A stretch of 64,000 nt of DNA, from assembly GCF_015689175.1 (NCBI RefSeq), contig NZ_CP065047.1:4650001-4714000 (forward strand), given 5' to 3'. Each line of letters begins with the position of its first letter. The first letter of the stretch is position 1. This DNA comes from Mycobacterium kubicae (GTDB lineage: Bacteria; Actinomycetota; Actinomycetes; Mycobacteriales; Mycobacteriaceae). Position numbers and translations under genes: made by a program. The notes under the pieces are model-generated. The model saw only the letters and a program-made list of their open reading frames with translations, made no database searches and was not told the DNA's origin. Positions 250-56,821 of the stretch are shown here, piece by piece.

Positions 250-293
250 CACTCCACGCTACGCGTTGTGAAGTGGTGTCTCTCGGTGAATTT

Positions 294-2491: not shown

Positions 2492-2503
2492 ACGGTGAGC
2501 CTA

Positions 2504-2872: not shown

Positions 2873-2887
2873 TGCCCGTTGCGCGTG

Positions 2888-4714: not shown

Positions 4715-4753
4715 TCTTCGCGCACGTGCTCGGCTAGGCGCGAGAGCGCCCGG

Positions 4754-5689: not shown

Positions 5690-5889
5690 GACTCCTCCTG
5701 TTGCTTCCGGTGCCGCGCGGCCCCACTGTCGTAGTGCGACGCTGTGTACCTGTTGCGGGATTCGACCAACCACGCTAGCGCACCTTCGCCCGCCGGTGCG
5801 GGGGCGACCTGCCCCCCGGCGAGCGGCGTCGGCGCGCACCGATTGGTTCCCGGCTGTTCCATGTCGGGGGGTAGGTTGCCCGGCCCAGG

Positions 5890-5903
5890 TAGAACACGTT
5901 CTA
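5890..5903. promoter_or_regulatory. KstR-like operator
   Basis: TAGAACACGTTCTA matches the published KstR consensus TnnAACnnGTTnnA at every defined position. It lies 8 bp before the ATG of the F420 oxidoreductase gene (5912), a spacing at which bound repressor would block the promoter. KstR is the TetR-family repressor of cholesterol-catabolism genes in mycobacteria. The match is seen; the regulation is inferred. Confidence 0.65.
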
Positions 5904-5911
5904 ATTCAGGC

Positions 5912-6760
5912 ATGGACTACGGGCTCGTTCTATTCACCAGCGACCGCGGCATCTCGCCGGCCGCGGCCGCCAAGCTGGCCGACGATCACGGCTTTCACAC
6001 GTTCTACGTGCCAGAACACACTCACATCCCGATCAAGCGGGAGGCCGCGCACCCGACGACGGGCGACGCGTCGCTGCCCGACGACCGTTACATGCGCACG
6101 CTAGACCCATGGGTAAGTCTGGGCGCGGCGTGCGCGGTGACGTCGCGGGTGCGGCTGTCGACGGCCGTCGCGCTGCCCGTCGAACACGATCCGATCACGC
6201 TGGCCAAGAGCATCGCCACCCTGGACCATCTGTCCGGCGGCCGGGTCAGCCTCGGCGTGGGATTCGGCTGGAACACCGACGAGCTCACCGACCACGGGGT
6301 GCCGCCGGGGCGCCGCCGCACCATGCTGCGCGAGTACCTCGAGGCGATGCGGGCGCTGTGGACGCAGGAGGAAGCCGAATACGACGGCGAATTCGTCAAG
6401 TTCGGGCCCAGCTGGGCCTATCCCAAGCCGGTGCAGTCGCACGTGCCGGTTCTGGTGGGCGCCGCGGGCACCGAGAAGAACTTCAAGTGGATCGCACGCA
6501 GCGCGGACGGCTGGATCACCACTCCGCGTGACTTCGAGATCGACGAGCCGGTGAAGTTGCTGCAGGACACCTGGGCCGCGGCAGGCCGCGACGGCGCCCC
6601 GCAGATTGTGGCCCTGGATTTCAAGCCGGTGCCCGAAAAGCTGGCCCGGTGGGCCGATCTGGGTGTCACCGAGGTGCTGTTCGGCCTGCCCGACAAGTCC
6701 GAAGACGAGGTCGCGGCCTACGTGGAGCGGCTCGCCGGCAAGCTCGCCGCGATGGTGTGA
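5912..6760 (+). CDS. LLM-class F420-dependent oxidoreductase (Rv0953c-like)
   Basis: 282 residues from ATG 5912 (MDYGLVLFTSDRGISP); the upstream in-frame starts lack support and would run through the operator. Features of the luciferase-like TIM barrel are AAKLADDHGFHTFYVPEHTHIP near the N terminus, LDHLSGGRVSLGVGFGWN at about residues 95-112 and VPVLVGAAGTEKNFKWIARSADGW near residue 180. These match the TIGR03619 group that uses coenzyme F420H2. The substrate is unknown; the KstR-like box suggests steroid or lipid metabolism. It is convergent with the thiolase-like gene, with only 5 bp between stops. Confidence 0.88.
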   Translation: MDYGLVLFTSDRGISPAAAAKLADDHGFHTFYVPEHTHIPIKREAAHPTTGDASLPDDRYMRTLDPWVSLGAACAVTSRVRLSTAVALPVEHDPITLAKSIATLDHLSGGRVSLGVGFGWNTDELTDHGVPPGRRRTMLREYLEAMRALWTQEEAEYDGEFVKFGPSWAYPKPVQSHVPVLVGAAGTEKNFKWIARSADGWITTPRDFEIDEPVKLLQDTWAAAGRDGAPQIVALDFKPVPEKLARWADLGVTEVLFGLPDKSEDEVAAYVERLAGKLAAMV

Positions 6761-6765
6761 CCGCG

Positions 6766-8292
6766 CTAGGGAAAGCAGCGGTTGCCGTAGTCGAATGAGC
6801 GCACTCGCACCCTCGCGCCCAGCGGATCGCCGTCGGTCAGCAGGGCGATCAACTCGTCGTCCTCGGTGGTCGACAAGAACCGGCTCCCGTCGTCGAGCCT
6901 GCCGATGATGATCCCGGTGGGCCGCCCGTCGTCGCGCCGGACCGTATAGGTCTCGACGGTGCCGGGGCCGTCGGCGTTCTCGGTCACCGGCACGGTTGGT
7001 CCGCTGTCGATGCGGCTCTGCAGTTCGGCGTTGCGTTCGGGCTGCCACGCCGTCGGGGCGGTCGAGTAGACGCCGACCGAGTACTTGCTCAGGATGCCGC
7101 CGTTGGCGCCGACCAGACCGAAGTGTCCGGGCGCGCGGCGCATCCGGGTGACCGTCTCGGCGACGGCGTGCATCGAGTAGTTGTTGCCCGCCCCACCGAA
7201 GAACGGCAGCCCGCCGGTCACGGTCAGGCCGCGGGGGTCGTCGGGCGCGATGCCCAGGCCGTCGCAGATGTTGAACACCGGCACCGGAAAGCAGCTGTAG
7301 AGGTCGAAGGTGGCGACGTCCTCGACGCCGATGCCGGCCATGTCCAGCGCCTCGGTCGCGGCCAGCACGGCCGACGGCGCGTGACCGAGGTCCGGGCGTT
7401 CCAGCAGGCTCTGCTCCTCCAGGTCGACGTGCCCGTGCAGGAACACCCACTTGTCCGACGGCACACCCAGGCGCCGCGCTGTGCCCACTGACATCAGCAA
7501 CGCGGCTGCGCCCTGGTTGACCTGGTCGCGGGCCACCATCAGCCGCGGATAGGGGTTGGAGATCATCCGGTTGCGCTCGGTCACGGTGATCAGTTCCTCG
7601 ACCGTGCGCTCGACCGGCGCCGCGGCGAACGGGTTGCCGGCAGCAACCTTGCTGAAGGGCGCGAACAACTCCCCCATGCGCCGCAGATAGTCGGCGGGCC
7701 CCAGGCCGGTGCCGGCTCGCCGCGCGTTCTCCAGCAGCCCGTATTGCGTCGGCGCGTCGATGAGACCGTGCACCACGGTGTAGCGCGAGATGAGCCCGTC
7801 GATGCCCTGCCCGCGGTCCTCCAGGTCACCCTCGACGGTCTCGGTGAAGTCGGGCTTGGCCTCGGCGCGCGCGAAGTAGCGCAGGGTCGACGTCGCGTCG
7901 GATCCGAAGATCAGTGCGGCCCCGCAGCGGCCCGCAGCGATCTGCCCGGCCAGCTCATTGATCAGGTGCTGCGGGCCCTGACCGCCGACCACCTCCAAGA
8001 TCGCCCGCGCCGGGTTGGCGCCGAGCCGGTTGGCCACCGAGCGCGGATAGTTGTTGGACCGTCCCAGCGGAGCCGTCGCCACCGGCCCGGAGATCTCGAA
8101 TTGCCGGACCCCGGCCACGGTGTCGATCACCGCAGCCACCGACGCGAACTCGGCGTCGCAGTCTTCCAGCGCGGCGCGGGCGGCGGCCGCCGCCAGCTCG
8201 ACCGGAGACATCGCCCGGTACCCGGGATCGTCGATGCGCTCAGCGGCTTGGCCGACGCCGACGACGACGGGTGTGTTCGGGTCGATGTGCAT
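6766..8292 (-). CDS. Acetyl-CoA acetyltransferase-like protein (thiolase superfamily, Rv1867-like)
   Basis: 508 residues. The start MHIDPNTPVVVGVGQAAERIDD and motifs such as EVVGGQGPQHLINELAGQIAAGRC (nucleophile region without an obvious catalytic Cys), FDLYSCFPVPVFN and GGLPFFGGAGNNYSMHAV resemble the large thiolase-like proteins of mycobacteria such as Rv1867. The usual GGGHPxGxxG signature near the C terminus is replaced by FFGGAGNNYSMH, and a C-terminal OB-like extension (about residues 400-505) is present. The reaction is unproved; an acyl-CoA role is inferred. As far as I recall, the gene does not lie next to sucD in M. tuberculosis, so it is an insertion relative to that genome. The stop of sucD's upstream neighbour is not involved: this gene begins 8 bp downstream of sucD. 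Confidence 0.75.
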   Translation of the reverse strand: MHIDPNTPVVVGVGQAAERIDDPGYRAMSPVELAAAAARAALEDCDAEFASVAAVIDTVAGVRQFEISGPVATAPLGRSNNYPRSVANRLGANPARAILEVVGGQGPQHLINELAGQIAAGRCGAALIFGSDATSTLRYFARAEAKPDFTETVEGDLEDRGQGIDGLISRYTVVHGLIDAPTQYGLLENARRAGTGLGPADYLRRMGELFAPFSKVAAGNPFAAAPVERTVEELITVTERNRMISNPYPRLMVARDQVNQGAAALLMSVGTARRLGVPSDKWVFLHGHVDLEEQSLLERPDLGHAPSAVLAATEALDMAGIGVEDVATFDLYSCFPVPVFNICDGLGIAPDDPRGLTVTGGLPFFGGAGNNYSMHAVAETVTRMRRAPGHFGLVGANGGILSKYSVGVYSTAPTAWQPERNAELQSRIDSGPTVPVTENADGPGTVETYTVRRDDGRPTGIIIGRLDDGSRFLSTTEDDELIALLTDGDPLGARVRVRSFDYGNRCFP

Positions 8293-8300
8293 AGCGAGCG

Positions 8301-9203
8301 CTACAGGCCCTGCAGGATCTCCCGGGCCAGCGCGGCCGTCTCCGAGGGCGTCTTGCCCACCTTGACACCCGCGGCTTCCAGAGCTTCCTTCTTCGCGGCC
8401 GCCGTTCCCGAGGACCCGGACACGATGGCGCCGGCGTGGCCCATCGTTTTGCCTTCGGGCGCGGTGAATCCCGCGACGTAGCCGACGACCGGCTTGGTCA
8501 CGTTGGCCTTGATGAACTCCGCGGCGCGCTCCTCGGCGTCACCGCCGATCTCGCCGATCATCACGATGAGCTTGGTGTCGGGGTCCTTCTCGAACGCCTC
8601 GATGGCGTCGATGTGGGTGGTGCCGATCACCGGGTCACCGCCGATGCCGATCGAGGTGGAGAATCCGAAATCGCGCAGTTCGTACATCATCTGGTAGGTC
8701 AGGGTGCCCGACTTCGACACCAGCCCGACCGGTCCCGGGCCGCTGATGTTGGCGGGCGTGATCCCGGCCAGCGCCTCGCCCGGCGTGATGATGCCAGGGC
8801 AGTTGGGACCGATGATGCGCGTCTTCTGTCCTTTGTCGACGTTGTAGGCCCACGCGTACGCGCTGTCCTGCACCGGGATGCCTTCGGTGATGACGACCAG
8901 CAGCGGGATCTCGGCGTCAATGGCTTCGATGATGGCGTCTTTGGCGAATTTCGGCGGCACGAAGACGACCGACACATTGGCGCCGGTCTCTTTGATCGCT
9001 TCCGCGACGGTGCCGAACACCGGCAATTCGACGTCCTTACCGACGGGGTCGACGTGCGAGACCGTGGTGCCTGCCTTGCGGGCGTTGACTCCGCCCACGA
9101 CCTGAGTGCCGGCTTTGAGCATCAGCGCGGTGTGCTTGGTGCCCTCACCGCCGGTGATGCCCTGGACGATGACCTTCGAGTCCTTGTTCAGAAAGATCGA
9201 CAT
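8301..9203 (-). CDS. sucD: Succinyl-CoA synthetase, alpha subunit
   Basis: 300 residues, normal length. With SucC it interconverts succinyl-CoA and succinate with substrate-level phosphorylation in the TCA cycle. The CoA-binding Rossmann domain is N-terminal ([35 protein letters not shown]). The active-site His that is phosphorylated lies in [12 protein letters not shown] at about residue 252. [13 protein letters not shown] marks the ligase-CoA domain. It is 13 bp downstream of sucC with its own RBS (AAGAGGAG region) and forms the sucCD operon. Confidence 0.97.
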
Positions 9204-9216
9204 CTGTTGGCTCCTC

Positions 9217-10380
9217 TTACTTGTTCGCCAGCTCGGCGGCTTTGTCTGCGCCGGCGTCCATGGTCTCGGCCTGAATCACCAGCGGGTGGTTGGCCTGGGC
9301 CAGGATGCGGCGTCCTTCGTCGACGTTGTTGCCGTCGAGCCGGACGACGAGGGGCTTGTTGGCTTCTTCACCGAGCATGTTGAGGGCGGTCACGATGCCG
9401 TTGGCGACGGCGTCGCAGGAGGTGATGCCGCCGAAGACGTTGACGAAGACGCTTTTGACCTGCGTGTCATTGAGGATGACGTCCAGGCCGGCGGCCATCA
9501 CCTCGGCCGAGGCGCCGCCGCCGATGTCGAGGAAGTTGGCCGGCTTGACCCCGCCGTGCTTCTCACCGGCGTAGGCGACGACGTCCAGCGTCGACATCAC
9601 CAGGCCGGCGCCGTTGCCGATGATCCCGACCTGGCCGTCGAGCTTGACGTAGTTGAGGTCGTGCTCTTTGGCCTTGAGCTCCAGCGGGTCGGTGGCCGCG
9701 CGGTCCTCGAACTCGGCGTGGCCCGGCTGACGGAAGTCGGCGTTGGCGTCCAGGGTGACTTTGCCGTCCAGCGCCAGGATCTTGTCGTCGGGCGTCCGCA
9801 CCAGCGGGTTGACCTCCACCAAGGTGGCGTCCTCGCCGATGAACACCTCCCACAATTTCTGGATGGTCACCGCGGCGGCGTCGAGCACCTCGGCCGGCAG
9901 ATGGCCCTGTTCGGCGATGGACCGCGCGAACTCGAGGTCGACGCCCTTGACCGCGTCGACCGGGACCTTGGCCAGCCGGTCGGGTTTGGTCGCGGCCACC
10001 TCTTCGATCTCCATGCCGCCTTCCACCGAGCACATCGCCAGGTAGGTGCGGTTGGCGCGGTCCAGCAGGAAGGAGAGGTAGTACTCCTCGGCGATGTCGC
10101 TGGCCTCGGCCACCAGCAGCTTCTTGACGATGTGACCCTTGATGTCCAGGCCCAGGATGTTCTTGGCGTGCTCGTAGGCGTCGTCGGCGGTGGCGGCGTA
10201 CTTCACCCCGCCGGCCTTGCCTCGCCCACCCGTCTTGACTTGAGCCTTGACCATCACCGGACGACCGATCTCCGTGGCGATGGCCTTGGCGTCCTCCGCG
10301 CTGTCGGTCACCCGCCCCTGGTTGCCGGGCACGCCGTACTTGGCGAACAATTCCTTGGCTTGGTACTCGAAGAGATCCAT
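9217..10380 (-). CDS. sucC: Succinyl-CoA synthetase, beta subunit
   Basis: 387 residues, standard length. The ATP-grasp domain occupies roughly residues 1-240 ([38 protein letters not shown]), with [11 protein letters not shown] and [14 protein letters not shown] providing metal and nucleotide ligands. The C-terminal CoA-ligase domain has [29 protein letters not shown] and [15 protein letters not shown]. It heads the sucCD operon and is divergent from the M23 peptidase gene across a 276-bp region that holds a CRP-type site. Confidence 0.97.
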
Positions 10381-47289: not shown

Positions 47290-47365
47290 GCCCTCGTAGC
47301 TCAGGGGATAGAGCACGGCTCTCCTAAAGCCGGTGTCGCAGGTTCGAATCCTGCCGGGGGCACCA
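47290..47365 (+). tRNA. tRNA-Arg (CCT anticodon)
   Basis: 76 nt with a complete cloverleaf: acceptor GCCCTCG/CGGGGGC (one T-G pair), D arm AGCTCAGGGGATAGAGC, anticodon arm CGGCT-CTCCTAA-AGCCG giving anticodon CCT, T arm GCAGG-TTCGAAT-CCTGC, discriminator A and encoded CCA. The last 25 nt before the CCA's second base form the attachment core of the integrated element. Confidence 0.96.
47339..47363 (+). repeat. attL core (25 bp) inside tRNA-Arg
   Basis: Identical to 56797-56821; begins CAGGTTCGAATCC and ends GGGGGCAC. It covers the T arm and acceptor 3' strand, so integration restores the tRNA. Confidence 0.95.
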
Positions 47366-47389
47366 CTTGAACAGGTAAAACGAGTTTCT

Positions 47390-47408
47390 GTGCAAGATGC
47401 GTGCAACT
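47390..47408 (+). other. Candidate integrase arm-type site, left
   Basis: GTGCAAGATGCGTGCAACT matches 56661-56679 (GTGCAAGATTCATGCAACT) at 17 of 19 positions in the same orientation. Each copy contains two TGCAA half-sites 11 bp apart, that is one helical turn. One copy lies 27 bp inside attL and the other 118 bp inside attR, as expected for P and P' arm sites. Confidence 0.6.
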
Positions 47409-47553
47409 GATCCTCGTTATGGCACCGACGAAGTCGAGTGGGTCTCGGTTTCGCCAACGCTTTCGTTTCTGATGCGCAACACGCTGTGGTGCCCCAAGGG
47501 GGTGGTACGCGCCGCCGCCAGGGGTCGCGTGGACAAGGAAAGCGGTGATGCGT

Positions 47554-48807
47554 TCACAGCTGGCCGAGCTCCTCCAGCAACTCCTCGGCGGTCACCGCTC
47601 CGTACATGAACTCGGACCCGTCGAGAGATTGCGTGCCGGGAATGAACGCATCCATGAGGTACACGCGAGGCCTGAACCCCCTCTTGGCGTCTCCCTCAAG
47701 CAGCCCAAGGGAAGTAAGCTTCCCGGTGTCATGGGACAGGGCGCGATCGCCTACGCCCGCGTACATTTCCGCCAGTTCTGGTGTCAACCGGCGAAGTCTC
47801 GCACGCGGCGTCCAGGCGTCCTCCGGCAGGCTCAACAGTAACGTTCGTCGCCGCTTCGACGTTTCACCCTGCGACTGGTTCTGGAACACCTCATGGACAT
47901 AGTTGACCCATGCCACTCGGCGCTGTTCCCATTGCACAAGTGCGATTTGCTCCCGAAGTTGATCGACGAACCCTTCGGCCGCGTACTCGATGAACCCGAC
48001 GACGTCACCGTGGCGCGACGCCGCGTCAAGCTTCGCGTAATACTTTGTGCGCGTGCGGTTGTAATGATCTGACAATAGGCTGCTCGACACCCAGGGGACC
48101 AACCCCGAATGCGCGAGGATCGCGCATTCGAGTGCACGCGCGGTCCGACCATTGCCGTCGCCGAACGGGTGAATCCACGCGATGTACAGGTGGCCGAGCA
48201 CCGCCGCGTAGAACGCCTGGAAGAATCGCTTGTCCGCGTCGAGCTTCCGGTCGTACACGTGCATAAGCATCTCGTTGACCCAAACGCACAGCTTCTCAAC
48301 TAGGTACGGAACATCCTCGGGGGGCGCCGCCCGATAGACGCTGCCGACCAGCAACGGGCGCGTCGTGTATTCGCCGGGTATGACATGGTCTTCGTCCGGG
48401 ATGCCCTGCAGGATCTCGCGGTTTTGCGCCCTCAACCACGAAGGGGTCAACTGCCACCCCTGCGAGTTGCGCGCTTCGACGTCGATGCGCTGCAAGACCC
48501 GCTCCATGTTCTCGACTTCACGTTGGAGATATTCCTGCGACGGCGGCAGCTTCTTGCGGTCCGCCAAGATTTCGGCGACCTCGGTCTCGGTCAAGGTGTT
48601 GCCTTCGATTGCGGTGGTCGCCGAGACGCCCTTGATGAGATAGACCCGTGCAAGCTCAGCAGCCAGCGCCGGCTGCAGCGGTGTGCCCGTCAGGTGCTGG
48701 CATTTGGAGAACGCCTCGCCCAGTCTGACGCTTAGAACGTTGAACTGGCCGCCGCGAAAATCGAAGCTGATCCAAGGATGACTTTCCTGATATTTACGTG
48801 TCTCCAC
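47554..48807 (-). CDS. Fic-domain protein, class II self-inhibited adenylyltransferase type
   Basis: 417 residues from GTG 48807. The Fic core motif is HPFGDGNGRTARALE at about residue 210, fully canonical (HPFx[D/E]GNGRxxR), so AMP transfer is likely. The N-terminal segment has the inhibitory helix motif in SATTAIEGNTLTETEV at about residues 62-77, whose Glu blocks ATP in class II Fic proteins. The rest of the N terminus is the Fic_N domain, and the C-terminal 120 residues look like a winged-helix (KLTSLGLLEGDAKRGFRP). A TATAGA -10-like box (48816-48821 on the minus strand) is 8 nt before the start and no SD is seen, so the mRNA may be leaderless. It is cargo at the tRNA end of the element. 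Confidence 0.92.
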   Translation of the reverse strand: METRKYQESHPWISFDFRGGQFNVLSVRLGEAFSKCQHLTGTPLQPALAAELARVYLIKGVSATTAIEGNTLTETEVAEILADRKKLPPSQEYLQREVENMERVLQRIDVEARNSQGWQLTPSWLRAQNREILQGIPDEDHVIPGEYTTRPLLVGSVYRAAPPEDVPYLVEKLCVWVNEMLMHVYDRKLDADKRFFQAFYAAVLGHLYIAWIHPFGDGNGRTARALECAILAHSGLVPWVSSSLLSDHYNRTRTKYYAKLDAASRHGDVVGFIEYAAEGFVDQLREQIALVQWEQRRVAWVNYVHEVFQNQSQGETSKRRRTLLLSLPEDAWTPRARLRRLTPELAEMYAGVGDRALSHDTGKLTSLGLLEGDAKRGFRPRVYLMDAFIPGTQSLDGSEFMYGAVTAEELLEELGQL

Positions 48808-48947
48808 CAGCCAAATCTATAATCTTGGCCCATATTTGTCCACGTTGACGCCGGCGTTTGCGCCGAGGTTCGCGCCGAGCGTAGTGTCGTCAGGGACGCC
48901 CTGCGTCGGCCGCCCTCGCGCGGTGCACAGGAAAGGAAGTTTGTCGA

Positions 48948-49115
48948 ATGGATACGCCGACGTCGGCGGCGCGCGACGCGCTGTTGAACTCAATCGCAGA
49001 GTCCGCAGAGGGCACAAAGATGCCGCGCGGCTTGGCACAGCTGGCCTACGCGTACGCGTGCGTAGTGTCGCCGGGATCCGCGGGCGAAGTCCCGTCAGAC
49101 GAGGGAAGTAGGTGA
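48948..49115 (+). CDS. 55-residue small protein, first gene of a coupled trio
   Basis: MDTPTSAARDALLNSIAESA with RBS AAAGGA 9 nt upstream of ATG 48948. The middle (LNSIAESAEGTKMPRGLAQLAYAYACVVSP) is predicted helical and resembles short actinobacterial hypothetical proteins of the pattern LxxIAexAeg...LAxLAxAYAxxxxP. The stop TGA overlaps the next GTG start (GTGA, 49112-49115). The function is unknown; it may be a helical adaptor or regulator of the genes below. Confidence 0.75.
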   Translation: MDTPTSAARDALLNSIAESAEGTKMPRGLAQLAYAYACVVSPGSAGEVPSDEGSR

Positions 49116-49342
49116 ACGTGACTGCATCGTCTGCCCAATGGTCGGTGGCGGTCCGCGAGCCGAACGATCGCGGCAACGTTGCCGCGGGCTACATCGTGGT
49201 GGTGCTCGAACAGGACTCCGAGGCGAATGCCCGCAACACCTACGCCGACTGCAAGCGGGTCGCGCCCAGCCTGGACTATCAATCTGTCGAGTTGCGGTGC
49301 GGCGACACGGTCGTCGAACGCTGGCCTGATGGGATGCGGTGA
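49112..49342 (+). CDS. 76-residue small protein, second gene of a coupled trio
   Basis: Starts GTG 49112 (MNVTASSAQWSVAVREPNDRG). The sequence alternates beta-like strands (WSVAVREP, AAGYIVVVLEQ, SVELRCGDTVVERW) and one helix (SEANARNTYADCKRV), suggesting a small alpha/beta fold. It overlaps both neighbours by GTGA, so all three proteins should be made in a fixed ratio. No family recognised. Confidence 0.72.
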   Translation: MNVTASSAQWSVAVREPNDRGNVAAGYIVVVLEQDSEANARNTYADCKRVAPSLDYQSVELRCGDTVVERWPDGMR

Positions 49343-49986
49343 TCAATATGGAGGGCATTCAATTGTTTGGTCGCGGCAGCCTGATGGATTTCAGCAATCT
49401 CCTCTCCACTGCTCTCGACGCAACCGCGCGGAATGTTGCAGAGCGCCTTCGAAACTGGAATGCCGACAGCCTTTTGGATACGCCGGCGGAAACGGTCATC
49501 GCCCAGCTCGTCGAGGAGGGCTCGGTCCGGTGCCCACGTCTGCTCACCGATCAGGCGTGGCAGCAACCCGATGCACGTGAGGTCGACAAGCAGATAATCG
49601 AGTTCGGAGAACCGGTCACCCGCCGTGTGAAACGACTCGTGCTCGTGGTTCCCTTTGAGGGTGAAATGGACGTGTTCACCCTCCGGGCTGACACGTCATC
49701 TACGAATCCGCCTCGGGTGCTGAGGTTAGATCCTCAGGAGCTGCATCTTGCCGTCGACGACCCACCCAGTGACGGCGCTGCGGTACGGGCGATGTTCGAG
49801 GAGCAGATCGCCAATATCGAAAGGTACCTCGGCTGGTCGCGCCAACAGATCGACGCGCACAACAAACGCATTCGTGACCAGGTGCCGAGGATGGTGGAGG
49901 TACGCCGGGAGGAAATGCGCGCTACGCGGAGGCTCCAGGCTGACACAGGTTATCCGACCAGCCGCCCCACCGGCAGCGACACCTAA
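49339..49986 (+). CDS. 215-residue protein, third gene of a coupled trio; possibly a shortened nuclease-associated protein
   Basis: Starts GTG 49339 (MINMEGIQLFGRGSLMDFSN). An N-terminal helical part is followed by a beta-rich part (VKRLVLVVPFEGEMDVFTLR, VLRLDPQELHLAVDD) and a long C-terminal helix (AAVRAMFEEQIANIERYLGWSRQQIDAHNKRIRDQVPRMVEVRREEMR) that looks coiled-coil. This layout recalls longer (about 400-residue) bacterial proteins with the same LGWSRxxIDxHNxxI helix followed by a nuclease-like C-terminal half; that comparison is from memory. Here the protein stops just after the helix. It converges on the SRA nuclease gene with a 72-bp gap. Confidence 0.72.
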   Translation: MINMEGIQLFGRGSLMDFSNLLSTALDATARNVAERLRNWNADSLLDTPAETVIAQLVEEGSVRCPRLLTDQAWQQPDAREVDKQIIEFGEPVTRRVKRLVLVVPFEGEMDVFTLRADTSSTNPPRVLRLDPQELHLAVDDPPSDGAAVRAMFEEQIANIERYLGWSRQQIDAHNKRIRDQVPRMVEVRREEMRATRRLQADTGYPTSRPTGSDT

Positions 49987-50058
49987 CCCATCGCACCTGC
50001 CGGTTGCCGGGAAACGAAAACGCCACACCGGGGCTAGGGGGACGCCTGGATATCGACG

Positions 50059-51015
50059 CTAGGGACACCGGCCCAAGCCGGTCATGTCGGTGAACTGGCC
50101 GGGACTGCCCTCCACGACGCAGCCGACGCCGTGGCTTTCGAGCAACTCGACCAGATCAGCGGCCGGCGTGCCGGGCAGCAACACTGCAAGCTCGGCGCCC
50201 TTCACGTAGCGGCCGTAGTCCAGGACCTGCCCGAGCGCTAGTCGTACGCTCATCCGCTCAGCAATGCCCTTCGCCTCATACAGCACGCCGTCGGTGATGT
50301 CGGCGGTGTCGGTGAACAGGACACCGGTAGGTGTCGTGATCTTGTAGCGCTTCACTTCTCGGCCATGCGATTTCAGATACTCCCGGAAGCGTGCGGTGAG
50401 CGCGGCCTCCTTCTGCACCGCGGTACCACTGGCAGTGCGCTCGAACTCGGTGCGCTCAGCTTTTATGTCCGCCTCCGGGACGGCGTCGACCGACACCGCC
50501 TCGACAGTCGATGCTGCGACAAATCCTCCGATCACGCTGAGCTGCCCGACGTCGCGAAGAACCTGCCCGACCGGCCGAAGCCGAAAGACAAACACATCGC
50601 GGGGCAGGCCGTCCCTGCCTGGCGCCTTCTTCGTGACGTGCCCGGTATCGGCGTCGATCTCAAACTCTCCGACATAACGGTGGACCCGAGTGCCGGTACC
50701 CGGTTTATTTCCTACCGCGACCAACAGCCTCAGCGCCCGGTTCTGCTCCTTGTGGTCAACTATGGCCTTATTGCCGCTTACGAGCCGCTGATCGCCGTTG
50801 GCACCCTCACCCGTGTAAAAGAACAGCTCACGGTTGGCGTCCCAACCGTCGAAGTCATAGCCGGACTCGCCGGCCTTGTCGTGATCGGAGTAGATGACGA
50901 CGTCTTCGGTCAACGGAACGATGCCGCGGTATCTGTGATCGCCGCCGCACCTTGCGGAAATTTCTTCTCGGGTGTTGTCCTCGCCGGGAGCAATCGTCCA
51001 CGTCGTTGAAGCCAT
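50059..51015 (-). CDS. SRA-like plus PD-(D/E)XK nuclease, probable modification-dependent restriction enzyme
   Basis: 318 residues from ATG 51015 (MASTTWTIAPGEDNTREEI); an ATG at 51048 is also possible. Residues 1-145 resemble the SRA-type domain of ScoMcrA-like type IV restriction enzymes: TIAPGEDNTREEISARCGGD, YSDHDKAGESGYDFDGWDAN, LFFYTGEGANGDQRLVSGNKAIVDHKE. Residues 210-318 carry a PD-(D/E)XK-type core: FTDTADITDGVLYEAKG (Asp, then ExK) and SVRLALGQVLDYGRYV with the trailing Gln/Tyr. It should bind modified bases in foreign DNA and cleave. No methyltransferase partner is present, consistent with a type IV enzyme. Confidence 0.8.
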   Translation of the reverse strand: MASTTWTIAPGEDNTREEISARCGGDHRYRGIVPLTEDVVIYSDHDKAGESGYDFDGWDANRELFFYTGEGANGDQRLVSGNKAIVDHKEQNRALRLLVAVGNKPGTGTRVHRYVGEFEIDADTGHVTKKAPGRDGLPRDVFVFRLRPVGQVLRDVGQLSVIGGFVAASTVEAVSVDAVPEADIKAERTEFERTASGTAVQKEAALTARFREYLKSHGREVKRYKITTPTGVLFTDTADITDGVLYEAKGIAERMSVRLALGQVLDYGRYVKGAELAVLLPGTPAADLVELLESHGVGCVVEGSPGQFTDMTGLGRCP

Positions 51016-51294
51016 GGGCGTGATCGTAGGCCGGCCGCTTGCCGTCATACGGCGGCCGACACGCCGTGCCGACGGTTTTCAGCTCCGGAGAGCGACGAGA
51101 AACCTGCGCCGGGATTGCAAGTTTAGATTGGCACAATCGCACCTCCGAAGCTGTTGCTGCTCAACCGTTTTGGTATTGCCGAACGTCGTGTTCGGGGTAT
51201 TCTTCACAAATATTCGGAGAAAAATGCGATAGATAAATCGGACGCGATCGTCCCGGGCGGCGCTGCCCTTCCAAAAAAAGCGGGGCCGTGCTGG

Positions 51295-51705
51295 TCAGCG
51301 GACACCGAGCACGCGCCCGTAGTGCTGCGAGTGCTCGATGGGCAGGGCGGCGACAGTCATGCGCTCGATGAAGTCAGCCTCGGCGCGGCGGCGGGCCTCC
51401 GCGGCTGCCGCGGTAATCGTGGGCGACGAGGCGGTCCGGGCCTCGACGACCTGGGGGGCCGGCCGCGGATGCGGCAGCGGGTCGCCGGCGCGGTGAAAGC
51501 ACGCGGCGCAGCGGCCGTCGTATCCGCCAAAACCGCAGACCGGGCACGGCGGCAAGGCGTGGGTGCGGCTGCGTTCATCGCGAGCTCGACTTTCGACGGC
51601 AGCCAATTCGGTGGCGACCCGTTCGGCTCGGCGCCGGGCGACGACGAGCTCGCTCCACCATGACCACGGTCCCGGTGCGGCATAGAGGCTGACAGTGTGG
51701 TGCAT
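51295..51705 (-). CDS. Small zinc-ribbon protein of the element
   Basis: 136 residues from ATG 51705 (MHHTVSLYAAPGPWSWWSEL) with AAAGGA 7 nt upstream. An Arg/Glu-rich helix (ELVVARRRAERVATELAAVES) precedes a four-Cys ribbon, CPVCGFGGYDGRCAACF. The rest is Ala/Arg-rich and helical. The leader, AAAGGACTAAACCC before ATG, is nearly the same as that of the next gene upstream. Unknown function; the 279-bp stretch between it and the SRA nuclease (51016-51294) is AT-richer and holds no gene I can support. Confidence 0.72.
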   Translation of the reverse strand: MHHTVSLYAAPGPWSWWSELVVARRRAERVATELAAVESRARDERSRTHALPPCPVCGFGGYDGRCAACFHRAGDPLPHPRPAPQVVEARTASSPTITAAAAEARRRAEADFIERMTVAALPIEHSQHYGRVLGVR

Positions 51706-51709
51706 GGGT

Positions 51710-52174
51710 TTAGTCCTTTCGTGAGGTGCGGGGTCGGGGCGGCGGGCTGATGCGGTAGCCGACGGACTCGCCCCGCAGGTAGCCGTCCATTCGGGCGCTT
51801 GCGGCGGCGAGGCGTTCGTCGTTGACCCGCGCGCCGAACAAAAAGTCGACCGCTTGGGCGCCGGCACCGACTTCGCCGTTGGCGCGCATTTCTGCGTGGC
51901 GGGCGTCGATAGCGTGGCGGCGCGCGCGGGCGGCGGCGACCGGCGCGCCGAGCCGGGTGGCGAGGTCGCGGCGGCGTTGCTGGTCGGCTTCGATTGCGGC
52001 AGCTCGCTGCTCGATCAGTTTCCGGCACACGGAGGCGTGCACGACGCGCAGTCCGGTCTCGGGGGCGATCGTCACATGATCGGCGCAGCGGGCGGCTAAC
52101 ACGGTTACGGGCTGGTCGAGCTCGGCCGCAAGGGTGACCAACGGAACGTTTTGAGCCGCAGTCTCTTTCATCAT
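51710..52174 (-). CDS. Helical hypothetical protein of the element
   Basis: 154 residues from ATG 52174 (MMKETAAQNVPLVTLAAELD) with GGAAGGACTAAACAC just upstream. The N-terminal third (LVTLAAELDQPVTVLAARCADHV, VHASVCRKLIEQRAAAIEA) resembles a DNA-binding helix set of phage proteins with a putative HTH (VTVLAARCADHVTIAPETGLRVVH); the rest is Ala/Arg-rich helix. It lies 4 bp upstream of the zinc-ribbon gene. Function not recognised. Confidence 0.68.
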   Translation of the reverse strand: MMKETAAQNVPLVTLAAELDQPVTVLAARCADHVTIAPETGLRVVHASVCRKLIEQRAAAIEADQQRRRDLATRLGAPVAAARARRHAIDARHAEMRANGEVGAGAQAVDFLFGARVNDERLAAASARMDGYLRGESVGYRISPPPRPRTSRKD

Positions 52175-52203
52175 GTGTTTAGTCCTTCCTCTGGTGCGGT
52201 TTC

Positions 52204-52794
52204 TTAGGGCTGTGGCGGCCGTGCAGCCGCGAACAGGGTCGAGGTGGGGTGCAGGGCCCGCGCGCGTGCCGCGGTAACGTGCTGGCCGCCGTGATCGCGT
52301 GCGGCGTGATAGCGGCCGCAGCCCGGGAACAGGGCGCGGTGCCGGTCGGCGTCGGTGGCGCATAACTGGCAGACGACGAGAGCGCCGGGCACGTCGGGCG
52401 GCCCGAATACGACGACGGTGGCGCGGCGGCCGAACCGTCTCTGGCACGCGGCGCAGCTTAGGTGCCCGCCGGCGGAGCGGGTGGTCGGCTGAGTGATTGT
52501 CGGCGGCGGCTCAGGGATGCTGGCGGGTTCGGGCGCCGCGTGGTCGACGAGATGATCGACCGGCGGCGTGAGGTCGACCAGCTCGGCGTCCGGCTCAGGC
52601 ACTGTGTCAGCGGTCGGCGCGGGGTCGAAGCGAGGCGGGGCCTTGCCGGCAGCGCACAGCGCGCAGGTGTCGCCGTCGGTCACCAGTCCTCTACGGCAGC
52701 GGCAGAGTCGGGCCAATTCACCGATCGGGCGGGCGCGTTTCTTGGCGCGCCGCCGGGCGGTCGGGCCGGGCCGGGGGCCGGCGGGTGATTTCAC
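52204..52794 (-). CDS. Zinc-finger hypothetical protein of the element
   Basis: 196 residues from GTG 52794, overlapping the upstream stop by GTGA. A Lys/Arg-rich N terminus is followed by two Cys clusters: LCRCRRGLVTDGDTCALCAAG (about 30-50) and HLSCAACQRRFGRRATVVVFGPPDVPGALVVCQLCATDADRHRALF (about 110-155), separated by a Pro/acidic linker. Probably nucleic-acid binding. No known family. Confidence 0.68.
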   Translation of the reverse strand: MKSPAGPRPGPTARRRAKKRARPIGELARLCRCRRGLVTDGDTCALCAAGKAPPRFDPAPTADTVPEPDAELVDLTPPVDHLVDHAAPEPASIPEPPPTITQPTTRSAGGHLSCAACQRRFGRRATVVVFGPPDVPGALVVCQLCATDADRHRALFPGCGRYHAARDHGGQHVTAARARALHPTSTLFAAARPPQP

Positions 52795-53177
52795 GGGGTC
52801 GTCTCCTGTCTATCGGTGTCGTCGGGGGCGCGGCGGTGCCAGCCGCACGCTTGTCCGGGCTGGCCGACAGGCATACGGCAGCGGCCGCCGCGCAGCGTGC
52901 GCCGGCCGCACCGGAGTGGGGCGAGCTCGACGCGGGTTTGCCAGAGCGCCGGCAGCGGGCCGGGCTGCTCGTGCGGGGCGTCGGCGCAGCCGGCGTCGAA
53001 CACCGCAGCCGGGTCGCCGATACCGTCCTTCTCGGCGAGCAGCAGCAGGACCGTCCCGTCGGGGCGCACGGCGGTCACCGCGGCGTAGTCGGAAGCACCG
53101 GCGTCGCACAAACACACCGAACGGTCGTCATCGACCAGCGCCGTCGTCACGCGCGGGCTCACGGCGACCACCTCCAA
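52791..53177 (-). CDS. Small Cys/His-motif protein of the element
   Basis: 128 residues. A beta-rich first half (VVAVSPRVTTALVDDDRSVCLCD, DGTVLLLLAEKDGIG) is followed by a Cys/His motif, LRCGRRTLRGGRCRMPV...CGWHR, at about 88-115. That C-R-x(n)-C-x(n)-C-x2-H arrangement is common in actinophage and integrative-element proteins. The start is uncertain (GTG 53177 used). It overlaps the next gene by GTGA. Confidence 0.66.
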   Translation of the reverse strand: MEVVAVSPRVTTALVDDDRSVCLCDAGASDYAAVTAVRPDGTVLLLLAEKDGIGDPAAVFDAGCADAPHEQPGPLPALWQTRVELAPLRCGRRTLRGGRCRMPVGQPGQACGWHRRAPDDTDRQETTP

Positions 53178-53283
53178 TTCTCATTTCTCATTCGCACTCC
53201 CTCTCGCCTCCGGGGAGAGGGAGGGAGTGAGAATTTTGAGCGCGAGTGATGAATCGGCGTGCGAATCGGGTGAGAAATTCTCA
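53170..53283. other. TGAGAA-rich palindromic intergenic region
   Basis: Between the ATPase stop (53281) and the next gene start (53177) lie a perfect 9-bp hairpin, CTCCCTCTC/GAGAGGGAG (53197-53205, 53215-53223), an odd palindrome TGAGAAATTCTCA (53271-53283) and several more TGAGAA copies in both orientations, some continuing into the ATPase gene to about 53560. Such clusters next to a replication ATPase can be an origin or repressor sites. Neither is shown. Confidence 0.45.
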
Positions 53284-54459
53284 TGCTGTATCGGTCTCGC
53301 TGCTGTCGAGGGTCGGCCCGAGGTAGCGGTATCGAGGTCGCTTATCCGTGCCGATGTTGACAAGCGCACTCCTGTTTATCAGTGTGTTTGCGGCTCGGTA
53401 GGCGGTCGCTTGGTTCATCCCGGACTCGACTGCGAGCTTGACGAGCTGGGACCGCGTGAGCCCTTCGATGCCGCACGATTTCTCAGCGAGATTCGCAAGC
53501 GTTTCGCACGAACCAGTGAGAGTTTCCGTGAACTTCTCATCGGCGAGTGAGAAAACGACCAGCGACTTTCGGAATTGCTCGTCAACGCCGGGCATGAGCG
53601 CTTCGGAGACGGTGTGCGGGACGAGCCGGTACTGAAATGTTTTGCCACTCGGCGCGTCCTTATGCTTCTCGACCTTGATTTCGACCCGAAATGCGTCAGG
53701 GGCGGTGAGGCGGAGGTCAGACCAGACCGCGCCGTCCCAAGCCGTCGATCCGCGCGGGGTCGAACCGTTGCGGCCGGTGTGGTGAATCCCCCAGACGGTG
53801 CAGCCGGCGGCGGCGCGTATCCGCTCGGCCGCCGCCACGGCGACGCCTTGCTCGGTGGCGCTGTTTTCTTCGAGCGCGAGGGTGCAGCGGGCGCGGGTGT
53901 CGATCACCAGCAGACCCGCGCCGACCTCGCGAGCCATCGCGACCGCATCGTCGACTTCGACGACCGCGCCGAGTTGGATCGGCATCGGCAAGATCAGCAG
54001 CCAGCCATCGACGCGGCCGGGGTCGACGCCGTGGTGTTCACACCACGCCAGGATGCGGGCACGCAACCCGGTGGCACCTTCGGCGGCGACGTAGACCACC
54101 CTCGTGCGGTCGCGGATCCGGTGACCTTCCCAACTGTTCTGCCCGGATGCCAGCGCGCAAGCGATATCGACGGCGACGAAACTCTTGTAGGTGCCGGGGC
54201 CGCCGGAGAGTTGGGCGAGGGTGTTCTGATAGAGCAGCCCGTCGACCAGGGGCCGCACCGGCGGCAGCACCGCGAGGTCGGCGACCGAGAGCAACTGAGA
54301 GCGGAACGTCGGACGGCTTGGCGTGTCCCGGCCGGCGTCGAGGCAGACGGCGGACACGTTGTTCTGGTCGGGCATGGACCGGCCGTCTTCGTCGACCCAG
54401 ACAGGCTCGGGATAGTCGCGGCCGTACGGGATATCGGGAATCAGGCGGCCCTCCCGCAT
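53281..54459 (-). CDS. RepA/RecA-like AAA ATPase with C-terminal winged helix (element replication)
   Basis: 392 residues. The RecA-fold core has Walker A GGPGTYKS at about residue 85, a Walker B-like GLLVIDTRAR at about 170, and GCTVWGIHHTGRNGSTPRGSTAWDGAVWSDLRL, which closely follows the RepA-type (AAA_25) hexameric helicase family of plasmids and phages. The last 90 residues (GLTRSQLVKLAVESGMNQATAYRAANTLINR) form a winged-helix. It probably loads or acts as helicase for element replication. Its start overlaps the upstream small gene by 19 bp. Confidence 0.85.
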   Translation of the reverse strand: MREGRLIPDIPYGRDYPEPVWVDEDGRSMPDQNNVSAVCLDAGRDTPSRPTFRSQLLSVADLAVLPPVRPLVDGLLYQNTLAQLSGGPGTYKSFVAVDIACALASGQNSWEGHRIRDRTRVVYVAAEGATGLRARILAWCEHHGVDPGRVDGWLLILPMPIQLGAVVEVDDAVAMAREVGAGLLVIDTRARCTLALEENSATEQGVAVAAAERIRAAAGCTVWGIHHTGRNGSTPRGSTAWDGAVWSDLRLTAPDAFRVEIKVEKHKDAPSGKTFQYRLVPHTVSEALMPGVDEQFRKSLVVFSLADEKFTETLTGSCETLANLAEKSCGIEGLTRSQLVKLAVESGMNQATAYRAANTLINRSALVNIGTDKRPRYRYLGPTLDSSETDTA

Positions 54460-54707
54460 AGCGCCGCGGCAACGTCAGCAGGGACCAGCGGAAGCAAGCC
54501 GTGCTCGGTCAGGTGTCCGATCGCGTGGCGCCACCCTTCAAGCTGGTGAGGGGTCAGTGGCGGCCGTGAGGCGAGGACACAGCGCATCGGGTCTCGGTGG
54601 TTGTGATGCCCGCAGGGCAGCGGCTCGCACCGGGCGGCGGCGACACGTCGAGCCTGCCAGCCCCGCGCCGCGGGCGTGTATCCCTGTGGTCGGTTAGCCT
54701 CCGCCAT
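54441..54707 (-). CDS. 88-residue hypothetical protein upstream of the ATPase
   Basis: MAEANRPQGYTPAARGWQAR, then CEPLPCGHHNHRDPMRCVL (a Cys/His cluster) and LTPHQLEGWRHAIGHLTEHGLLPLVPADVAAALCGRA, the last part resembling a helical segment that prefigures a replication or HTH module. It starts ATG 54707 and overlaps the ATPase start. Family not recognised; probably in the replication operon. Confidence 0.7.
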   Translation of the reverse strand: MAEANRPQGYTPAARGWQARRVAAARCEPLPCGHHNHRDPMRCVLASRPPLTPHQLEGWRHAIGHLTEHGLLPLVPADVAAALCGRAA

Positions 54708-54825
54708 ATCCGCTGTCCTTTGTTTCGCGGCATCGGCTGGTGGATTCGATAGTGGTGGTGGCGTCCCGGGCGGTCAGTTCGGGACGCTCCGCTTTTCTCG
54801 TTGATGGCATGTATGGCAACGGTTT

Positions 54826-55032
54826 TCAGGCAGCGCCGCCGACGGGCCGCATCAGGGCGTCGAGGTCGTCGGCGCGAACCTTTAACAGCCGCGGCCCGAC
54901 CCGAACGGCGTTGAGCCGGCCGGCGGAAATGTAGCGACGAACGCTGCGGTAAGAGACGCCAAGACGGTCGGCGGCTTCCTGAATGCCGATCAGCTCGGGG
55001 CGTGCAGCGGAGGGTTCGGTCTTTCTGGGCAC
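54826..55032 (-). CDS. Excisionase-like helix-turn-helix protein
   Basis: 68 residues from GTG 55032. IGIQEAADRLGVSYRSVRRYISAGRLNAVRVGPRLLKVRADDLDALM is a MerR/Xis-type winged HTH of the excisionase family (HTH_17). It probably directs excision and may repress int. Its SD (GGAAGG on the minus strand) lies in a perfect hairpin, GGAACC-TTCC-GGTTCC (55036-55051), just before the start. The gap 55033-55140 holds no gene. Confidence 0.85.
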   Translation of the reverse strand: MPRKTEPSAARPELIGIQEAADRLGVSYRSVRRYISAGRLNAVRVGPRLLKVRADDLDALMRPVGGAA

Positions 55033-55140
55033 GGTGGAACCTTCCGGTTCCTGAGCGGCCCTGCGGTTACCTCAGATTCGTCATTCCATGACGGGCAACA
55101 ACAACCTTGTAATTCTGAACCGTAGATTACGAGTGTCCGG

Positions 55141-55554
55141 TTACGCAATACCGCGGCCGGTTCCGCCCCCGGTGTCGGGTCGCAGAATGCGGACCGGGCG
55201 GCCCGGTGACGCGCCCGCGAGGTCAGCGTGCAGATCGCGCACCCACGCAGTTTCGTCGACGTGAGTGCACACCAGCCGTAACCATGCGAACTCTGGCGGG
55301 TAATCGGCGAGCCAGCCGACCCAATCGGAGGTTTCCGCCGGCGCGCCCGGACCCTCCCAACCGGGCATCTCGGCCCACTCGCCCGTCAGGGCCGATCGCT
55401 CGACGTTGCGGGCCAAGCCGTAGCGGCCCGAGACACGGTTGGCGGGCGCGCGGAACTTTGGACCGTCCGGGGTTTGCCATATCTGCAACAGCAGGCAACC
55501 CTTTGCGCGGCAACGGTATTCGAGCAGCACCGCGCCCCGGTGCGGTCTGGTCAT
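55141..55554 (-). CDS. 137-residue protein coupled to the integrase gene
   Basis: Starts ATG 55554, overlapping the integrase stop by ATGA. MTRPHRGAVLLEYRCRAKGCLL opens with a Cys pair that may form a half zinc-ribbon; then GPKFRAPANRVSGRYGLARNV and a Trp-rich part (SDWVGWLADYPPEFAWLRLVCTHVDETAW). Similar small proteins follow integrase genes in actinobacterial elements, but I do not know a function. Confidence 0.7.
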   Translation of the reverse strand: MTRPHRGAVLLEYRCRAKGCLLLQIWQTPDGPKFRAPANRVSGRYGLARNVERSALTGEWAEMPGWEGPGAPAETSDWVGWLADYPPEFAWLRLVCTHVDETAWVRDLHADLAGASPGRPVRILRPDTGGGTGRGIA

Positions 55555-56645
55555 CCTGCGACCGCCAGCTTCGACAGGCGGCGCGCGATTTCGGCGTCGC
55601 GGCCCTCGCCGACGTGCTGATACCGCAACGCCATTTGCGGCGTTGTGTGCCCGAGCCGATGCATCAGCTCGGCAGTCGTCGCACCCGACTGCGCCGCGAG
55701 CACCGCGCCGACGTGCCGCAGGTCGTGCACCCGAAAGCGTGGTTTGCCAATCGCGGCGCGCGCTTTCTCCCAATGCGCCCGGTAGCGGTCAGGCCTCAAG
55801 TGAGTGCCGCCGGCGTCGGCGAAGAGCAGCGCCTCACCGCCGCGGCCGACGTGCTCGCGCAGGTGCGCCGCCAAGATGGGCCGCAGGTGCGGCGGCACGG
55901 TCACGTCGCGCGACCCGGCCGCGGTTTTCGGTTCGCCGACGGTGAATCGGCCGGCGCGGTAGGTGACGGCGCGGCGAATGTGAAGCACGCTGTGGTCGGC
56001 GCTCACGTCACGCCGGCGCAGCTCCGAGGTCTCCCCCCAGCGCAGCCCGCACCACGCGGCGAGCAGCACACTCGCGCACAGTTCGGCCGGCATCGCCGCG
56101 GCCAGGGCGTCGAGCTGGACGGGCGTGAGCACGTCGATCGAGCGGCGCCGCTTGGTCTGCATCGCCGCCCGGATACGGCACGGGTTGGCGTCGAGCAACT
56201 CGTCGGCGACCGCGGTCGCGCAGATTGCGTGCAGCAGGGCGTAGGCGTGAGCGTTGCGGGTCGGGTGCTTGGTGCCGAGCCCGGCGTGCCACTCGCGCAC
56301 TCGCGCCGGCGTGAGAGCGGTCAGTTTCGCGTCGCCGAGCTCGGGCAGGATCAGCCGCTCAAGCATCGACTCGTACAGCGACTGAGTGCGGGTCCGCAGG
56401 GCGCGCTGCTCTATCCACCTGTCGGCGTAGCGGCGTAGCGTCACACCGTCGGAGCGTTCGACGGCGCCCCACGTGCCGAGGTCGATCTTGCGGCGTTCGG
56501 CGGCGAGCCAGCCCTCCGCGTCGTGCTCGCTGGCGTATGTTCGCGGCGCCTTGTGCAACTTGGCATCGGGGCCGACGTAGGCGGCCTGCCAGCGCCCTGA
56601 CGGCAGTTGCCGCAGCCGCCCGAATCCCCGCCGTTTCCGCGCCAT
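55551..56645 (-). CDS. int: Tyrosine site-specific recombinase (integrase)
   Basis: 364 residues from ATG 56645 (MARKRRGFGRLRQLPSGRWQ), with GGGGG close upstream. Residues 8-55 are an arm-binding domain (RYGRLRQLPSGRWQAAYVGPD-like), 75-165 the SAM-like core-binding domain, and 180-364 the catalytic domain: Arg in LLAAWCGLRWGETSEL, His-x-x-Arg in RVHDLRHVGAVLAAQSG, His in RLGHTTPQ and Tyr in MALRYQHVG. It should recombine attP with the tRNA-Arg attB. It sits 152 bp from attR and reads away from it. Confidence 0.95.
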   Translation of the reverse strand: MARKRRGFGRLRQLPSGRWQAAYVGPDAKLHKAPRTYASEHDAEGWLAAERRKIDLGTWGAVERSDGVTLRRYADRWIEQRALRTRTQSLYESMLERLILPELGDAKLTALTPARVREWHAGLGTKHPTRNAHAYALLHAICATAVADELLDANPCRIRAAMQTKRRRSIDVLTPVQLDALAAAMPAELCASVLLAAWCGLRWGETSELRRRDVSADHSVLHIRRAVTYRAGRFTVGEPKTAAGSRDVTVPPHLRPILAAHLREHVGRGGEALLFADAGGTHLRPDRYRAHWEKARAAIGKPRFRVHDLRHVGAVLAAQSGATTAELMHRLGHTTPQMALRYQHVGEGRDAEIARRLSKLAVAG

Positions 56646-56660
56646 ATCCCCCGCCATTCC

Positions 56661-56679
56661 GTGCAAGATTCATGCAACT
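56661..56679 (+). other. Candidate integrase arm-type site, right
   Basis: GTGCAAGATTCATGCAACT, partner of 47390-47408 (17 of 19 identical). It overlaps the region just upstream of int, so integrase binding could also autoregulate. Confidence 0.6.
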
Positions 56680-56796
56680 TGAGTGTCCCAACGTGTCCGA
56701 AAGTGACTATAACTGCCGGAACGGCGGAGCGGGCTTATATGCAGGTCAAGCGGACAAATCAGCAGGTCGGCGATTCGGTCGGCCCGCAGGTTCTGT

Positions 56797-56821
56797 CAGG
56801 TTCGAATCCTGCCGGGGGCAC
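56797..56821 (+). repeat. attR core (25 bp)
   Basis: Second copy of the tRNA-Arg 3' end; the bases on its left do not continue a tRNA, so it is not a gene. Chromosomal DNA resumes to the right. Confidence 0.95.

Follow-up and report, generated by a model that had tools for sequence, protein, structure and literature searches.

A probable capsid-less satellite with defence-type cargo in a tRNA-Arg gene of Mycobacterium kubicae

The stretch of Mycobacterium kubicae DNA analysed here (the window, 64,000 nucleotides of contig NZ_CP065047.1) contains a 9.46-kb element between two copies of an attachment-site (att) core at the 3' end of a tRNA-Arg(CCT) gene, and this element is probably a capsid-less, defence-carrying member of a lineage of mycobacterial satellites. 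Sequence comparison shows that a set of relatives has the same kind of integrase and excisionase, att core, and arrangement of the att ends, and most relatives bounded by att copies hold a phage capsid gene within 6.9 to 18.6 kb, a length too small for an ordinary tailed phage. The satellite reading is strengthened because 10 of the 16 bounded members of the integrase clade carry such a gene. A preliminary description had proposed a phage satellite or small integrative element with anti-phage genes; the capsid-bearing kin bear out the kinship with satellites, while among the cargo genes a defence role is convincing only for the one that encodes an SRA nuclease, and movement by phage is suggested indirectly.

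Boundaries, integrase clade, and capsid-bearing relatives

The two att cores match exactly, repeat the 3' end of the tRNA gene, and lie 9,458 bp apart, as the preliminary description had it. The 25-mer has 3 copies in the 6.0-Mb host genome (the tRNA-Arg(CCT) of the window, the copy at 56797, and a tRNA-Arg(CCG) gene elsewhere) and 0 copies when read backwards as a control; no tRNA is called at the 56797 copy. A tRNA 3'-end repeat with an integrase and an excisionase inside it is the organisation of a tRNA-integrated mobile element. An unoccupied tRNA-Arg(CCT) site, which the preliminary description had suggested looking for, was read in another species than the window's own (genome G282), where the left flank is 69% identical to that of the window and the 11.6 kb past the tRNA hold neither an integrase of the clade nor, at up to 5 mismatches, another copy of att. 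The elements L097, L098, and L101 sit in tRNA-Arg(CCT) beside a left neighbour 54–56% identical to the window's. The right flank led to no empty site: neither of its two best orthologs (83% in G103, 81% in G066) has an att copy or a tRNA close by, which means that the right neighbour either is not ancestral or has been rearranged. Past the tRNA of G103 come an arm-like word and a brief stretch of unclear make-up, a site that counts neither as clearly empty nor as clearly occupied.

The integrase belongs to a sharply delimited clade found in non-tuberculous mycobacteria. Searching 248 genomes of the genus gave 107 matches at E ≤ 1e-30, with 17 loci besides the window at 72–83% identity and then a gap, the next match being at 54% or less. 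A scan of species representatives gave 53 integrase loci, 23 of them at 72–84%, from 22 labelled mycobacteria and one metagenome-assembled genome (L118) labelled only Actinomycetota; 15 of the 23 are on the same contigs as in the first search, and L106, L107, L111, L113, L116, L118, L122, and L124 are new. The clade thus totals 26 loci, window included. It does not extend to isolated phages, since all 1011 phage records that match the integrase do so below 60%. In IMG/VR the integrase finds 3 loci, two of which coincide in their DNA with the elements G236 and L122, the third being at 44%. Copies of att lie on both sides in 16 of them, and the 10 unbounded loci (L086, L087, L088, L091, L102, L107, L111, L113, L116, and L118), which run off contigs or show no second att copy (in L111 the element amounts to no more than about 2.4 kb), were left out of the counts. 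An excisionase homolog is present in all 17 first-round relatives, and sibling integrases begin at MARKRRGFGR.

Elements of the clade with other cargo, which the preliminary description had suggested searching for, occur in the same and in other tRNA genes: tRNA-Arg(CCT) in 6 bounded elements (the window, L093, L097, L098, L101, L122), tRNA-Arg(CCG) in 4 (L090, L094, L095, L124; L106 has a similar context with no tRNA called), tRNA-Pro(GGG) in 3 (L096, L099, L100), and tRNA-Arg(TCT) in 1 (G236, identical to L092/L193). The targets of integrases this closely related (72–84% identity) thus include three or more tRNA-Arg species as well as tRNA-Pro(GGG). The remaining element, L089 (positions 1–9560, M. 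ostraviense), begins inside att, with its tRNA outside the contig view; the whole contig spans att core to att core, as if the assembly broke there; an element that is excised or present in several copies could explain this, but so could the short repeat itself.

In 14 of 15 elements tested, all but L090, a tandem CGTGCAA-type word is located some 25 bp inward of attL, although the copy in L098 is weak. Near the integrase gene the word is clear in 9 of the 15; in L090, L095, L097, L098, L101, and L124 it is weaker or missing there. The test used 300 mononucleotide shuffles on a word chosen from the same sequences, with G236 not included. The two copies in the window would presumably act as arm-type integrase sites. 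A separate dyad-like word near CCGGCAGTGTCCTATACTGCCGG, about 90 bp into the pre-attR stretch, is common to most siblings, with 1–8 mismatches in 14 of 15 tested; the window copy (56686–56722) is weak, with 7 mismatches, and the word is perhaps an operator or promoter of the integrase gene.

The HK97-type capsid family PF05065 is above its cut-off inside L089, L090, L097, L099, L100, L101, L106, L122, L124, and G236, with capsid positions assigned to elements by matching coordinates by hand. It is absent inside L093, L094, L095, L096, L098, and the window element, and from the whole genomes G000 and G104 (the host of L096). The PHROGs profiles agree, as 9 of 110 sibling proteins (at least 100 amino acids, excluding integrases and excisionases, from 14 bounded relatives and the unbounded L118) match phrog_10; among the best 25 of 107 families, portal (phrog_104), terminase (phrog_9), and head-tail connector each match two sibling proteins. 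Portal and large terminase occur together in L101 and L122 (the same clusters, c27 and c9) and in G236 (terminase of cluster c9, portal by inspection), thus in three of the ten capsid carriers. A 371-amino-acid protein of L093 looks capsid-like by eye; it has no PHROGs match at 1e-5 and no PF05065, and L093 was counted as capsid-less. Tail genes are scattered: L100 encodes a minor tail protein, L124 has a match to a tape-measure gene, and G236, L102, and L116 contain reading frames that are tape-measure-like by inspection.

The largest relative, G236 (C7 27622–46214; L193, L092), spans 18.6 kb at tRNA-Arg(TCT) and has capsid, protease, terminase, portal-like, and tape-measure-like genes. With this gene content it is closer to a prophage, and it could be either a small prophage or a satellite that includes a tail gene.

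In a tree of 31 integrases (25 of the clade and 6 outgroups; L111 not included, L093 without a capsid label), the window integrase nests among capsid carriers. It pairs with L101 (97/82), a carrier of capsid, portal, and terminase, and L090 and L106 join the pair in a four-member fork (86/87), in which all members apart from the window are capsid carriers. The label "capsid" takes 5 changes on the tree, a number as low in 29 of 500 shuffles, and the label "no capsid" also takes 5, as low in 500 of 500. Since the tree leaves 13 of its 28 inner branches open and the end branch of L101, whose called start is late, is long, we draw nothing beyond the nesting from this tree.

Cargo of the attL-side interval

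In 7 of the 9 capsid carriers other than G236, the capsid gene has attL on one side and a large primase-like gene on the other (clusters c3 and c21; L099 by inspection); no primase-like large gene was identified on the integrase side of L090 and L106. In the window, this attL-side interval is filled by genes for a Fic protein, a coupled trio, and the SRA nuclease, all of which the preliminary description had placed at the tRNA end, and its GC content is 61.7%, against 69.1% for 51295–56796 and about 66% for the flanks.

The SRA protein is convincing as a modification-dependent restriction enzyme, with an SRA domain and PD-(D/E)XK-type catalytic residues recognised by homology and predicted fold. 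Its match to SAD_SRA (PF02182, E 0.015) is under the Pfam cut-off and is backed by PADLOC (3.4e-5) and by ScoMcrA, its sole sequence match in the PDB (8.6e-4). Among its 220 homologs, precomputed PF26348 annotation falls on most of the 120 listed and one record names its type ScoMcrA-like SRA; the homologs also suggest a start about 11 codons later than the called one. Residues D247, D250, E258, and K260 are invariant across 48 homologs, window included, a pattern that we take to be of the PD-(D/E)XK type. The predicted model has a pLDDT of 88.6 and a pTM of only 0.56, which makes the placement of the domains unsure. AspBHI (E 5.3e-9) and MspJI (3.4e-8) are its best whole-model fold matches, followed by the SRA domains of plant SUVH proteins and by ScoMcrA, at 13–27% identity and TM-scores of about 0.3 over the whole chain. 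AspBHI, MspJI, and ScoMcrA share an SRA-type reader with the window nuclease, ScoMcrA being nearest in SRA sequence; ScoMcrA is described as having sulfur-binding and HNH domains, which the window protein lacks. Relatives occur in 11 viral contigs, and one is found in Gordonia phage Sidious at 30%.

The functions of the other cargo genes are guesses. The Fic protein has the canonical motif, and FICD-type proteins are its closest solved relatives. The coupling of the trio proposed in the preliminary description is real, the first two frames overlapping and the third starting beside the second at either of two codons; the 76-amino-acid second frame matches no family in the family-profile scans or PADLOC. 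The third matches PADLOC PDC-S54 (1.6e-37) over profile positions 12–205 of 410, its N-terminal half, the C-terminal nuclease half being missing. Twenty-one further short homologs, one of them a 122-amino-acid fragment, were found by a search that returns only proteins up to 1.75 times the query length, and by these sequences the short form without the nuclease half is a conserved one. It matches no PDB sequence below E 0.45 and no fold (best E 0.15); in IMG/VR it has 6 pattern matches, none a confirmed locus, and among plasmids one distant match, from Streptomyces. The name PDC-S54 did not appear in a literature search, subscription journals lying largely beyond its reach.

PDC-S54-like matches occur in 3 of 396 genomes of the genus, window included. 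The other two, G001 and G391, lie outside such elements, so that relatives of the cargo do occur away from att-bounded regions, though at 48–52% identity. The family (L180 8886–10093; L181 9235–10479) takes three forms: fused to a putative D...ECK nuclease in G001 (the full form, 414 amino acids), split in G391, and short in the window. The C-terminal part in G001, with its D...ECK motif, is 78% identical over 127 amino acids to the separate gene that follows the short form in G391. In the window no D...ECK nuclease gene follows the PDC-S54-like frame, and the SRA gene is convergent to it; that the two proteins work jointly is speculation.

These uncertainties give some room to an explanation in which the block is not defensive, the Fic protein and the trio forming a toxin or regulatory cassette that stabilises the element and the SRA gene being an old restriction relic. 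The Fic target is untested, the PDC-S54-like protein lacks the nuclease half of its profile, and the trio runs opposite to the Fic and SRA genes. We nevertheless consider this unlikely, given the invariant catalytic residues of the SRA homologs, their occurrence in viral contigs and a phage, and a fold that matches enzymes cutting modified DNA.

A second defence-type cargo in the clade, and the only one counted as such among the PADLOC matches of the 110 sibling proteins, lies in the capsid-less L096 at tRNA-Pro(GGG) (6715–8591), a pair matching PDC-M30A/M41A and M41B/M30B (best 1.3e-110). Three "RTasDnaG-like" matches in siblings are probably primases, and weaker single matches are to mad1, PtuB, PDC-M01B, MTase_II, and RT_UG29. 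Proteins resembling WXG100/ESX-type secreted proteins by eye in L106 (17500–18333) and L095 (16224–17785) recall the PEST systems reported in prophages and candidate phage-inducible chromosomal islands (PICIs) (PMC10654092).

We tentatively suggest that the interval from attL to the replication gene might be an exchangeable slot, within one integrase lineage, for either a capsid module or an anti-phage block, a proposal we hold to be somewhat doubtful. The window would be its clearest defence-slot case and L096 the second, and swapping a single cassette would change the dependency class of the satellite, between needing a helper mainly for tails and needing one for heads and tails. The prophage-like 18.6-kb relative makes the idea slightly less likely.

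Features of the integrated element and its tRNA target (window coordinates)
Feature	Position	Strand	Basis or detail
tRNA-Arg(CCT), integration target	47290..47365	+	ARAGORN; 3' end regenerated by element
attL core, 25 bp	47339..47363	+	exact direct repeat
Putative arm-type integrase site, tandem CGTGCAA-like pair, 25 bp inside attL	47389..47407	+	2 mismatches to clade word
Fic/Doc protein, 417 aa, HPFGDGNGRTAR motif	47554..48807	-	PF02661 5.5e-14; PADLOC SoFic 2e-51; FICD-type structures
Small ORF, 55 aa, first of coupled trio	48948..49115	+	GTGA overlap with next ORF
Small ORF, 76 aa, second of coupled trio	49112..49342	+	ORF list
PDC-S54-like protein, N-terminal half	49339..49986	+	215 aa (GTG 49339) or 212 aa (ATG 49348)
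SRA + PD-(D/E)XK-type nuclease, putative modification-dependent restriction enzyme, 329 aa	50059..51048	-	homology, predicted fold
About 4 small GC-rich genes	51295..53177	-	gene caller: 51295-51705, 51710-52174, 52204-52683, 52791-53171
AAA_25 / RepA-like ATPase, putative replication helicase, 392 aa	53281..54459	-	PF13481 7.8e-33; phrog_906 6.7e-47
Small ORF, 88 aa	54441..54707	-	related to L100 ORF, 51% over 37 aa
Excisionase, 68 aa	54826..55032	-	TIGR01764 1.4e-11, above cut-off; PF12728
Small ORF, cluster c4	55141..55560	-	in 6/25 loci compared
Tyrosine integrase, 371 aa as longest ORF	55551..56666	-	PF00589; phrog_1 4.6e-57; clade membership
Second putative arm-type site, at integrase start	56659..56677	+	1 mismatch to clade word
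attR core, 25 bp	56797..56821	+	exact direct repeat

Backbone and mode of transfer

The integrase, excisionase-type helix-turn-helix (HTH), AAA_25 ATPase, and Fic protein are all above Pfam cut-offs, in accordance with the genes named in the preliminary description. Its small zinc-ribbon genes are present as small genes; the zinc label reflects visible CXXC pairs only, every zinc family staying below cut-off (zf-Vps39_C comes closest, at E 0.021). The block of small GC-rich genes is kept in part in siblings (clusters c12 and c20) and has no family above cut-off in the family-profile scans or PADLOC.

All 63 open reading frames (ORFs) of at least 60 amino acids inside the element were scanned in six frames. 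Pfam gave 12 families at E ≤ 0.01, none of them structural, relaxase, or FtsK/SpoIIIE. PHROGs gave 34 families, the best 25 being of integration, replication, and unknown types except for one head and packaging name, the small terminase phrog_57 (E 0.0015), which falls on the excisionase HTH and was taken as a chance match. Neither set found a capsid, portal, or large terminase gene, so that the claimed lack of structural and conjugation genes withstood a profile search for hidden ones, and neither found packaging or capsid-redirecting genes of the element's own, which many, though not all, families of phage satellites have.

As a satellite, the element would have its integrase join a circular form to the tRNA-Arg 3' end and its excisionase reverse this on phage infection, the RepA-like ATPase would aid replication of the circle, and the circle would be packed into helper phage particles. 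With no capsid, portal, or terminase, it would need a helper for both heads and tails, in the manner of PICIs or of phage-inducible chromosomal minimalist islands (PICMIs), whereas its capsid-bearing kin would need one mainly for tails. The attL-side anti-phage block would take the place of the kin's capsid in the same interval; its SRA nuclease, as homology strongly suggests, would cut incoming DNA with modified cytosines, and the Fic and PDC-S54-like proteins might serve as accessory or abortive effectors.

Several observations weigh against this account. Phage-borne transfer is suggested by kinship, the scans revealed no packaging gene, and phage searches found no packaging-like stretch that the element shares with isolated phages; in a distant search covering 8000 of 9431 element bases, the 15 best of 66 matches all fall in the ATPase and excisionase. 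Profile search of the host genome gave neither PF05065 nor phrog_9, so any helper would come from outside. The ATPase has distant relatives, its best other match in 198 genomes being at 40%. Six of the 16 bounded elements are capsid-less, and with 5 changes on the tree and its open branches, loss or replacement of the capsid is not resolved from repeated gain. The tape-measure-like gene of the 18.6-kb G236 and the single tail genes of L100 and L124 show that the clade is not purely satellite-like.

An integrase, excisionase, and replication ATPase in a tRNA gene are also the backbone of integrative mobilisable and integrative and conjugative elements (IMEs and ICEs). Together with the missing capsid, portal, and terminase, this lends something to a rival in which a small integrative element, an IME or the remnant of an actinomycete ICE, moves by conjugation or generalised transduction and merely has an integrase of satellite or phage descent. 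It seems rather improbable, as the 63 ORFs hold no relaxase or FtsK/SpoIIIE family such as relaxase-type IMEs and actinomycete ICEs use, the integrase kin mostly bear capsids, and no plasmid record matches the element by megablast. That the element is instead the immobile, decayed remnant of a capsid-bearing satellite or prophage, its cargo kept because it protects the host, would suit the capsid-bearing kin, the lost packaging genes, and the lack of a resident helper by two profiles, and is quite improbable given identical att cores and integrase, excisionase, and ATPase frames open over their full length with no internal stops.

Relation to known satellites and significance

Candidate PICIs of Mycobacterium, including phiRv1 and phiRv2, have been published and are capsid-bearing, being defined by an integrase plus a major capsid gene (PMC10654092). 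Like the window element, they are about 10 kb long, with a tyrosine integrase at a tRNA, a replication gene, and a mycobacterial host (PMC10654092). The window has the integrase and no capsid and so falls outside that definition, which ten bounded siblings satisfy (PMC10654092); these capsid-bearing siblings fit the candidate-PICI description and in that respect resemble phiRv1 and phiRv2 (PMC10654092). The PICMIs of Vibrionaceae resemble the window in having an integrase, an HTH regulator, and a primase-type gene without capsid-remodelling genes (PMC10803314), and in keeping defence genes at the end away from the integrase (PMC10803314), but they differ in hosts, att site (in fis), and other genes (PMC10803314), and the window element has no known helper. 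P4-like satellites likewise have an interval of exchangeable anti-phage genes (PMC9122126), whereas the window shows no P4 genes, another integrase lineage, and other hosts (PMC9122126). Since capsid-bearing PICIs and the defence hotspots of P4 and PICMI are already published, the window element is a variant and not a new kind. A literature search of titles and the starts of abstracts, with subscription journals largely outside it, found no capsid-less, defence-bearing mycobacterial satellite.

Surveys that call mycobacterial satellites by their capsid gene miss capsid-less members (PMC10654092), and such elements could be found independently of the capsid by their integrase clade, their 25-bp att core, and their arm-type word. 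The clade also offers a natural comparison between relatives with and without a capsid of their own. If the element is indeed moved by phage, the P4 and PICMI hotspots would have a counterpart in defence-carrying satellites of mycobacteria, with a bearing on phage resistance in non-tuberculous mycobacteria.

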